Origin: Halopolyspora algeriensis | Lineage (GTDB): Bacteria; Actinomycetota; Actinomycetes; Mycobacteriales; Pseudonocardiaceae | Length of the DNA: 64,000 nt | Direction of reading: 5' to 3' | Assembly: GCF_003337235.1 (NCBI RefSeq) | Contig: NZ_QPJC01000002.1 | Coordinates: 558,001-622,000, forward strand | Shown here: positions 29,809 through 63,425 of the stretch, in pieces | How the letters are laid out: each line of letters begins with the position of its first letter | Position numbering within the stretch: position 1 is the first letter of the stretch | The notes under the pieces: model-generated | The model's input: only the letters and a program-made list of their open reading frames with translations | Told to the model about the DNA's origin: nothing | Database searches by the model: none | Program-made: the position numbers and the translations under genes

Positions 29809-30004
29809 CCGAGCGAAAGATCCCCGCCGGCCGCGGTTTGCGCACACCGGCGCCCGGGTAAATCGACGAGGCAGCAGCGGCCCGTCCGCAGATCGTCCCT
29901 CGGCCACCGGCCCTGAGACGTCCGGCGACAGCGGTGCCTTCGCCGATCGCCGGGGACGCGGAATCGCCGCCTATTACCACGGCAACGGGTGGAGGAGCAG
30001 GAAC

Positions 30005-32552: not shown

Positions 32553-32714
32553 CTACCGGGTGTCCTCGTCCTGCTCGGCAGGTTCGGTGGGTTCGTCACC
32601 GTCGAGATCGATCGTTTCCAGTTCCGGACTCTGGCCCAATCCGTCGTCCGGCAGCCGGCGTGGGTCCTCAGGGGTGTCCGCGCTGGGATCCTCGGACTCG
32701 GGTGGTTCACTCAT
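32553..32714 (-). CDS. very acidic 53-aa protein of unknown function
   Basis: A 53-aa frame starts at ATG 32714 with GGGGGAG 5 nt upstream. The product (MSEPPESEDPSADTPEDPRR at the start) is rich in Asp, Glu and Pro and has almost no hydrophobic core, so it is probably intrinsically disordered. It heads the leftward set with the 93-aa and DUF2267 genes and is divergent from the transporter gene. It was not matched to a family. The good ribosome binding site and consistent direction favour a real gene. Confidence 0.55.
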   Translation of the reverse strand: MSEPPESEDPSADTPEDPRRLPDDGLGQSPELETIDLDGDEPTEPAEQDEDTR

Positions 32715-32941
32715 CGTCTCCCCCGCGAATGCAGGCTGGTTTCTGCGCGCTTGCGTTGTCGCTTCTCCAGAAGGGATTGACACGATGACGTGGTCGTTAA
32801 TCCTGCCGGGGACGGGCAACTCACCCGGTGTGTTCGGTGTCGGCGGCGGGATTGTGGCGAGGGTCGGGGTTTGCCCGGACCGCGCTCGCCGTACTGCGGG
32901 TTTGGCTGCCCCGAAAGCGGGTACGCCAGGCACGGATCCGA

Positions 32942-33074
32942 GTCACAGGACGTTACCGGCGCCGGTGGTGAACCACCAGCTGTGACGAAAGGGGTGAGCA
33001 CGTGCCGAACTCGTACACCTCGGCAACCACAACCCCGAAGTTCGACCGGTGAGAACCGGTCTCCCCACACGGAG
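32942..33074 (+). ncRNA. structured 5' leader (riboswitch-like) before the acetate-type transporter gene
   Basis: Several perfect stems follow each other just before the transporter start. GTCACAG (32942-32948) pairs with CTGTGAC (32980-32986) and encloses a GGTGG/CCACC hairpin (32964-32977). GGGGT (32991-32995) pairs with ACCCC (33032-33036) and encloses TGCCGA/TCGGCA (33003-33008 and 33020-33025). GACCGGT and ACCGGTC (33044-33061) close a GAGA tetraloop. CTCC/GGAG (33061-33074) could mask the ribosome binding site. The layered layout looks like a regulatory RNA; no known riboswitch class is recognised. The strand is inferred from position. Confidence 0.4.
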
Positions 33075-33092
33075 AGAAAGAGGGGCTTCGTC

Positions 33093-33842
33093 ATGACCAA
33101 TGCCGCCAGCGCGCGATCCCAGAGTGGTGACTCCTCCGATTTCGCCTTCTGGAAGGACCATTCACAGATCTCGTTGTCGCCGGTGGCCGCGCCTTCCGTC
33201 CTCGGGTTGTACGGTTTCGCGGCCGCGACCTTCATGGTCTCCGCGAATCTGGCGGGATGGTACGGCAATCCGGTGGCCACACCGTTGATCCTGTTCCCCT
33301 TCGCGATGGCCATCGGTGGTATCGCCCAGTTCCTCGCCGGAATGTGGTCCTACCGTGCCCGCGACGCGGTCGCGACCGCAGCACACGGCAGCTGGGGCGC
33401 GTTCTGGATCGCATACGGGGTCTACCACATCTTCATCGCGGTGGGATTGCTGCCGGGGCCCTCGACCAGCACGACGGCAGCCGTGGCGTTCGGGTACTGG
33501 TTCATCGTCCTGGCCGCCATCACCTGGGCGACGGCGTTCGCCGCGATGGCCGAGAACCTCGCCGTGTCCGCGGTACTTCTCACCCTGGCGGCCGGTGCGA
33601 CGGTGCTCGCGATCGGCTTGATCACGCAGGCGGGAGCCGTGGAGACCGCAGGTGCCGTCATCCTGATCGCCTCGGCCTGCCTGGCGTGGTACACCGCCAC
33701 CGCCATGATGCTGCAGGCCACCTACGGCCGGGTGATCCTGCCGATGGGCAAGCCCGACAAGCAGAGCAACGTTCCGGGTGAGATCCCGCAGCAGCGCATC
33801 CAGTACGAGTCCGGCGAACCGGGCGTGAAGGTCGGCCAGTAA
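33093..33842 (+). CDS. GPR1/FUN34/YaaH-family (acetate/succinate) transporter
   Basis: This 249-aa membrane protein has six predicted helices. The first helix contains SVLGLYGFAAATFMVSANLAGW, the family's NPAPLGL-type entry motif in a degenerate form, and GGIAQFLAGMWSYRARDAVA with GSWGAFWIAYG are typical of YaaH/SatP. Members carry acetate or succinate with protons or act as ammonium-linked carriers. The C-terminal 40 residues are hydrophilic. ATG 33093 has a GAGAGAAAGAGGGG region upstream. The leader RNA at 32942-33074 lies directly in front of it. A 10-bp stem terminator follows. Confidence 0.9.
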   Translation: MTNAASARSQSGDSSDFAFWKDHSQISLSPVAAPSVLGLYGFAAATFMVSANLAGWYGNPVATPLILFPFAMAIGGIAQFLAGMWSYRARDAVATAAHGSWGAFWIAYGVYHIFIAVGLLPGPSTSTTAAVAFGYWFIVLAAITWATAFAAMAENLAVSAVLLTLAAGATVLAIGLITQAGAVETAGAVILIASACLAWYTATAMMLQATYGRVILPMGKPDKQSNVPGEIPQQRIQYESGEPGVKVGQ

Positions 33843-33862
33843 CCGCCGATCCCTCTCGTGGA

Positions 33863-33895
33863 GGCGGTCCGGGACCAGCGAGGCTCCGGACCGCC
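33863..33895 (+). terminator. hairpin terminator after the YaaH-family gene
   Basis: GGCGGTCCGG (33863-33872) and CCGGACCGCC (33886-33895) form a perfect 10-bp stem, 20 nt after the transporter stop and before the hemerythrin gene. No T-run follows, which is common in GC-rich actinomycetes. Confidence 0.6.
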
Positions 33896-33928
33896 GACGC
33901 GTGATTCCAGCGAGGACAAGGAGCAGCA

Positions 33929-34507
33929 ATGGCCACACCCGAAGGACCGAGTACCCAGCGCCAGAGTCTGGTCGACGTCATCATCGCCGATCACCGGGCC
34001 GTGGACGAGGTGTTCGGCCAGCTGGAGACAGGAAGCGGCTCGGACGAGCACCGCAGGCAGCTCGTGGAGCACGTGATCACCGAGCTGGTGCGGCACTCCG
34101 TGGCCGAAGAGCAGTACCTCTACCCCGCCGCGCGGGAGAAGCTCTCCGATGGAGACCACGTCGCCGACCGCGAGGTCGAGGAGCACGCCGAGGCCGAGCA
34201 ACTGATGAAACAGCTCGAAGCCACCGAGGAGGATGATCCGGAGTTCGACCGCATGACCGGTAAGTTGATCACCGATATCCGGCACCACATCGAGGAGGAG
34301 GAACGGGACCTGCTGCCACGGCTGTCCGAGGCGTGCACAGCCGACGAGCTCGACGACCTGGGCAAGAAGGTCATGATGGCCAAGAGCTCGGCGCCGACAC
34401 GTCCTCACCCCACGGCACCGGACACACCACCCGCCAACATGATCCTCGATCCCGGCGCCGGCATGATCGACCGTCTCCGGGACGCGCTCTCCGGCCGCAA
34501 CCGATGA
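33929..34507 (+). CDS. hemerythrin HHE-domain protein
   Basis: This 192-aa protein has a four-helix HHE domain in residues about 12-135. The diiron ligands are suggested by ADHRAVDE, VRHSVAEEQYLYP, EEHAEAEQ and the DIRHHIEEEERDLLP segment with several His and Glu. The C-terminal tail is proline-rich and disordered. Bacterial hemerythrins bind oxygen, nitric oxide or iron and often respond to oxidative or nitrosative stress. An AGGACAAGGAGC region precedes ATG 33929. It sits between the acetate-type transporter and an RsbW-like gene, supporting a stress locus. Confidence 0.9.
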   Translation: MATPEGPSTQRQSLVDVIIADHRAVDEVFGQLETGSGSDEHRRQLVEHVITELVRHSVAEEQYLYPAAREKLSDGDHVADREVEEHAEAEQLMKQLEATEEDDPEFDRMTGKLITDIRHHIEEEERDLLPRLSEACTADELDDLGKKVMMAKSSAPTRPHPTAPDTPPANMILDPGAGMIDRLRDALSGRNR

Positions 34508-63318: not shown

Positions 63319-63425
63319 GGGCGTACCACGCGGCCCGGACGTGTATTCCCGCCGCGCGTTTCAGCACTGCCCGCCGGGGGTAACGCGGAGCCGACATCCG
63401 GCAGCCGCGTGCGAAAGGCTCACTC

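Follow-up and report, generated by a model that had tools for sequence, protein, structure and literature searches.

The gene for a YaaH-family transporter in Halopolyspora algeriensis is preceded by a leader of about 160 nt, which we regard as probably a genus-specific structured 5′ UTR on a general-stress transcript that tunes translation or mRNA stability. The conservation of the promoter, two conserved hairpins and the restriction of the leader to the genus were shown by computation; the start site, the acting sigma factor and any influence on translation or stability are what we infer. The window, i.e., the whole stretch of 64,000 nt that was analysed, belongs to genome G000, and its leader was compared with that of the sister species G001, the other genome of the same genus examined. 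The features are as follows, all on the + strand.

32900-32924, +: SigB/SigF-type promoter (GTTT at 32900-32903, 15-nt spacer, GGGTAC at 32919-32924), recognised by pattern and conservation
about 32931-33092, +: predicted 5′ UTR (leader) of about 162 nt, alignable with G001 only
32942-32986, +: stem P1, GTCACAG/CTGTGAC (32942-32948/32980-32986), an exact repeat that encloses P2 as a closing stem
32964-32977, +: hairpin P2, GGTGG-TGAA-CCACC, nested in P1 and conserved in G001
32991-33036, +: stem P3, GGGGT/ACCCC, enclosing P4, not clearly conserved
33003-33025, +: stem P4, TGCCGA/TCGGCA, inside P3, not clearly conserved
33044-33061, +: hairpin P5, GACCGGT-GAGA-ACCGGTC, conserved, adjoining the ribosome-binding site
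33063-33066/33082-33085, +: possible Shine-Dalgarno lock, CCCC/GGGG, among the consensus pairs, where one C-G pair becomes U-A by a double change
33077-33085, +: Shine-Dalgarno sequence AAAGAGGGG, identified by sequence, in a block conserved with G001
33093-33842, +: YaaH-family (GPR1/FUN34/YaaH) transporter gene, 249 aa (PF01184, 82.6 bits, cut-off 25)
33929-34507, +: hemerythrin HHE protein gene downstream of yaaH (PF01814, 66.8 bits)

The YaaH-family gene and its neighbourhood

The preliminary description had placed the leader before a YaaH-type gene, and the profile searches confirmed this, with scores above the cut-offs of both PF01184 and the acetate uptake transporter profile NF038013 (55.2 bits, cut-off 50). 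The score against NF007941 was 57.9 bits, below the cut-off of 297. By sequence, the protein belongs to the same family as the SatP/YaaH acetate-succinate transporters (5ys3 and 5zug), to which it is distantly related. The ANPAPLGL segment of 5ys3 aligns with AAPSVLGL, and NPAPxGL, which we take to be the YaaH/SatP motif, is thus not present in the window protein. The same replacement characterises this YaaH clade and was also found in a far relative (L049), suggesting that the substrate of the clade may differ from acetate.

Relatives of the downstream hemerythrin gene were also located near yaaH in other genera (L031/L061, L032/L065 and L071). In mycobacteria, the SigF-dependent peroxide response is reported to be inhibited by a hemerythrin-like protein (PMC4295536), and a hemerythrin gene beside yaaH is in keeping with a stress context. 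In addition, a strong hairpin (GGCGGTCCGG...CCGGACCGCC) was found in 33789-33910, which covers the end of yaaH and the intergenic stretch before the hemerythrin gene. The two species share a conserved fold over this region (z −3.8), and the hairpin is possibly a terminator without a U-run or a processing site. At the Halosaccharopolyspora locus (L061), a co-oriented sigma-70-family gene (G006:C2:706762-707442; TIGR02980, 121.8 bits, below the cut-off) ends approximately 200 nt before the yaaH relative.

A SigB/SigF-type promoter upstream of the leader

The pattern GTTT-N13-16-GGGTA occurred three times in the 64-kb window, compared with 0.12 matches expected. The two other matches, both GTTT-N16-GGGTA on the + strand, are at 29836-29860, approximately 130 nt before the ORF of an ATP-grasp protein, and at 63358-63382. 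Across YaaH loci, whose start codons were set by a rule of this analysis, GNNT-N13-17-GGGTA was found at most 300 nt upstream in 25 of 46 cases (100 shuffles: mean 1.31, maximum 6), and in 24 of 42 distinct loci after four duplicates were dropped. Grouped by identity, these were 20 of the 29 loci with at least 57%, 2 of the 5 with 50-57% and 2 of the 8 with less than 50%; nine of the 29 close relatives therefore had no such pattern. None of the 14 distant YaaH genes checked in the same bacterial family was preceded by it.

The GTTT-N-GGGTA arrangement is the SigF consensus of M. smegmatis (PMC4694148), and the SigB homologues of S. coelicolor use a similar promoter type (PMC8346170). The candidate promoters share with both the GTTT/GNNT −35 element, the GGGTA(C/T) −10 element and matching spacing. 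In the main text of these two papers, yaaH is not named.

Genome-wide, the strict pattern was found at 15 sites in G000, compared with two for the reversed pattern, and at 17 sites in G001, compared with four. Five of those 17 are copies of one identical GTTT...GGGTAT 26-mer (L109, L115, L117, L121 and L129), apparently within a repeated element, so the G001 count is inflated. G000 encodes a SigB/F/G-type sigma factor (G000:C7:62675-63343; TIGR02980, 300.4 bits, cut-off 234.35). The pattern also precedes the anti-sigma and SigBFG genes of this genome: in G000 and G001 alike, an ORF that reads as an HATPase-type anti-sigma factor follows one strict site at a distance of 119 nt, and the sole SigBFG gene above the TIGR02980 cut-off follows the same site at approximately 0.75 kb. 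Several other strict sites in the two genomes were less convincing, being followed by weak ORFs only. Strict sites were also found 50 nt (L118, G000:C4:234461-234486) and 47 nt (L107, G001:C1:448259-448283) before closely similar genes that, on reading, resemble zinc-dependent alcohol/formaldehyde dehydrogenases.

The usual distance between a −10 element and the start of transcription would place the start at approximately 32930-32934 (about 32931), just 5′ of the first stem, and the leader structure thus probably lies within the transcript of the YaaH-family gene. A start downstream of the structure, which the preliminary description had held to count against a leader RNA, is not what this prediction gives. 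The end of GGGTA is 38-77 nt from the start codon in most relatives that have the pattern, compared with 169 nt in the window and 173 nt in G001; distances above 100 nt were also found at four other loci (L039, L058, L075 and L076). Because most relatives with the promoter have short 5′ UTRs, the long structured leader appears to have been added to a promoter and gene that are conserved together. Additionally, no sigma-70 promoter and no U-tailed terminator were found in 32700-33200, and classic attenuation is therefore not indicated.

Two conserved hairpins and the readings they allow

All the stems of the preliminary description were present as described, including the GNRA loop GAGA of P5 and a short TCTCC/GGAGA stem preceding the Shine-Dalgarno sequence, but by count on the window sequence they exceeded chance only marginally. 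For 32942-33074, seven stems of at least 5 bp were found, compared with 5.3 in 300 shuffles (28% of which reached seven), four of at least 6 bp, compared with 1.5 (reached by 5%), and two of at least 7 bp, compared with 0.44 (reached by 6%). The minimum free energy of −51.3 kcal/mol (z −1.79) was equalled or bettered by 10 of 200 shuffles, and 38% of 164 GC-matched 133-nt windows from both strands of the 64 kb folded as well or better. Taken alone, the stem content of the window sequence is thus only marginally unusual.

Comparison of the two species raised the structure above chance, for P2 and P5 alone. The leaders are identical in 110 of 166 columns (0.66), and the fourfold-degenerate sites of yaaH in the same pair are 0.70 identical. 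The linkers (7/14, 27/58 in the middle region and 6/13; 0.46-0.50) diverge at least as fast as these sites. Meanwhile, the P2 block (32963-32978) is identical in 16 of 17 columns, the P5 arms in all 14, and the block that spans the Shine-Dalgarno sequence and the start codon (33075-33095) in 19 of 21. The P5 loop matches in two of four positions and reads CCGA in G001, compared with the GNRA loop GAGA in the window. In G001, P1 persists with a bulge and with two one-sided changes that are compatible with G-U pairing. For P3, P4, the GNRA loop and the start-codon pairing, G001 has no clear counterpart. The preliminary idea of a structure thus stands in part, as some of it is shared with the sister species.

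The two-sequence consensus fold reached −37.45 kcal/mol, compared with a mean of −21.2 (sd 3.9) when columns were shuffled within their classes (z −4.15; none of 500 shuffles was as good). Dinucleotides are not preserved in this control, and conserved palindromes in the DNA would add to the signal as well. When the window sequence was kept and its partner was simulated under neutrality, 0.8% of 500 simulations reached this energy. Masking P5 or P2 alone brought z to approximately −2.7, and masking both brought it to −1.20, a value reached by 10% of 300 shuffles, which indicates that the fold signal is P2 plus P5. In the predicted ensemble, P5 had pair probabilities of 0.85-1.0 in both species. 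P1, once the coding start was included, had values of 0.03 (window) and 0.0 (G001), and P3 (0.95-0.99) and P4 (0.93-0.99), strongly predicted in the window, had aligned pairs at 0.0 in G001.

We favour a reading in which P2 and P5 act as parts of the mRNA. A SigF-like or SigB-type sigma factor active under stress would direct the polymerase to start just 5′ of the first stem, and the resulting mRNA would bear the P2 and P5 hairpins joined by fast-evolving linkers. P2 and P5 would be the parts under constraint, the latter directly upstream of the ribosome-binding site. Together, they would most likely set basal translation and mRNA half-life, through 5′ protection, by holding upstream structure away from the ribosome-binding site and perhaps through weak masking of the Shine-Dalgarno sequence. 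Counting against this reading are the nine of 29 close relatives that lack the promoter pattern, the lack of covariation above the control in a comparison of only two sequences, and the different placement of the Shine-Dalgarno sequence and the AUG in the two species in ensembles that include the coding start.

The same two elements could instead be DNA operator palindromes for a local regulator acting downstream of the promoter, with the RNA hairpins incidental. The arms of P2 and P5 are conserved in sequence and their pairing never varies, so they carry no RNA-specific evidence; moreover, the P5 sequence forms a near-perfect palindrome of 18 bp that has no second copy in either genome, as would suit a local regulator (GACCGGTN2-4AACCGGTC occurs once in G000 and once in G001 and is absent from G006). 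However, among 190 sliding windows over both strands of the two aligned loci, the leader was the most extreme on the mRNA strand (z −4.49), and the same stretch on the opposite strand gave only z −2.09. The pairing of P1 survives through G-U changes, P5 lies more than 110 bp downstream of the predicted start, and a second copy of P5 was found neither near the promoter nor elsewhere in G000 or G001. The operator reading of P2 and P5 is therefore disfavoured, and we consider it unlikely.

A genus-specific cis-regulatory switch is another candidate, in which P1 would leave the start codon free, a pairing between TGACGAA and the start codon would block it, and a ligand, a protein or temperature would shift the balance. 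In the window, TGACGAA (32983-32989) is a perfect 7-bp complement of the start-codon region (33087-33093), with which it pairs in the minimum-free-energy fold that includes the coding start. P1, also 7 bp and perfect, shares bases 32983-32986 with it, so the two are mutually exclusive, and P1 is preserved in G001 through its two G-U-compatible changes. The predicted ensemble of the window leaves the AUG 26% unpaired and gives the Shine-Dalgarno lock a probability of approximately 0.75. Against a switch, the complement is gone in G001, where the AUG is 82% unpaired and the lock has a probability of 0.0. Perfect complements of 7 bp at unlimited distance are to be expected by chance in GC-rich DNA (five such or longer in 333 bases), and no conserved unpaired core was seen between the two leaders. 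Between 20 and 55 °C, the predicted unpaired fraction of the core Shine-Dalgarno sequence moved only from 0.36 to 0.40 in the window and from 0.23 to 0.32 in G001; an RNA thermometer is accordingly not favoured. On balance, a switch of this kind seems quite unlikely.

Another proposal is that the leader is simply a GC-rich intergenic stretch in which function is limited to the promoter and the ribosome-binding site. The marginal single-sequence statistics agree with this, as does a whole-leader identity equal to neutral divergence. Covariation was no higher than in the control, with two double changes compared with a control mean of 3.4 and seven changed pairs in the consensus structure compared with 7.7; the preliminary description had named missing covariation as evidence against a structured RNA, and none was seen above the control, though two sequences give little power. 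Nevertheless, the arms of P2 and P5 are conserved far beyond the linkers and no other window among the 190 has so strong a consensus fold, which makes chance a very improbable explanation. A coding leader is the weakest proposal and was rejected as an upstream ORF and as an N-terminal extension of YaaH, since, although the yaaH frame is open upstream in both species and the window holds a 16-codon GTG ORF at 33002 with the Shine-Dalgarno-like AAAGGGGTGA ahead, the alignment needs frame-shifting single-base gaps, the two leaders differ in length by 4 nt, the ORF is not preserved in G001 and the conserved start and Shine-Dalgarno sequence are those at 33077-33095, so that we hold it to be highly improbable.

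Distribution of the leader and meaning for the YaaH clade

The preliminary description saw no known riboswitch class in the leader, and Rfam agreed: no match reached the gathering score in the 64-kb window, and at E values up to 10, only chance-level matches appeared over 32700-33130. No tRNA or tmRNA was found. In a DNA search of 100 relatives, G001 alone gave a convincing match to the leader (E 6e-16), and the next best was a set of short matches (2.3e-4). A covariance model (R1) was built from the window and G001 leaders, which it matches by construction, at E values of about 1e-50. Over 297 genomes of the family, R1 found nothing convincing beyond these two; 25 genomes had a match at E values up to 1, and the best additional match (9.6e-4 in G280) compares with approximately 0.3 such matches expected by chance over the 297 genomes. 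Among 46 sources, consisting of the window and its relatives, R1 matched only the window and L060, with the next E value at 1.2, and reading 180 bases at each of L135-L142 by eye disclosed no similar leader. The covariance search near YaaH genes that had been proposed thus returned the genus-level pair of leaders but none that was convincing in other genera. The leader, found in two genomes of the genus, looks genus-specific.

These results do not support a ligand riboswitch. No convincing riboswitch-like occurrence before homologous genes of other genera emerged from the R1 search of the 297 family genomes. The ligand-sensing RNA for acetate-type uptake suggested in the preliminary description finds no support in view of a leader found in two genomes only, fast-evolving linkers, no excess of covariation and a promoter that is kept in relatives without the leader. 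Ligand sensing by the hairpins is unlikely. Only a low probability attaches to the reading as a young cis-regulatory RNA, in which the two hairpins and the start-codon lock would form a second, post-transcriptional gate on the divergent YaaH of a SigF-type transcript of one genus.

Structured 5′ UTRs that bind no ligand and carry hairpins beside the ribosome-binding site form a known class. The window leader resembles them in its length of about 160 nt and in the hairpin directly upstream of the Shine-Dalgarno sequence, a likeness drawn from two sequences only. A candidate structured nucleic-acid motif beside a YaaH/SatP gene has also been described in Enterobacteriaceae, where the dnaK-satP motif occupies the interval from dnaK to satP, is backed by covariation and overlaps a possible promoter (PMC11109978). 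Nothing in the present results points to a relation of this motif to the window leader. At the level of titles and listings, the literature linked no YaaH gene to a SigB/SigF regulon and held no YaaH leader RNA besides the dnaK-satP motif (PMC11109978).

The guess at a riboswitch is thus replaced by a simpler statement, namely, that an actinobacterial clade of YaaH genes has a recurrent general-stress promoter. The presence of this promoter in the clade and its absence from distant YaaH genes of the same family suggest a role of the subgroup in stress physiology, either in place of growth on acetate or alongside it. What the leader adds to the stress transcript is small and of genus level, and the recurrent stress promoter of the YaaH clade is a more useful result than the RNA.
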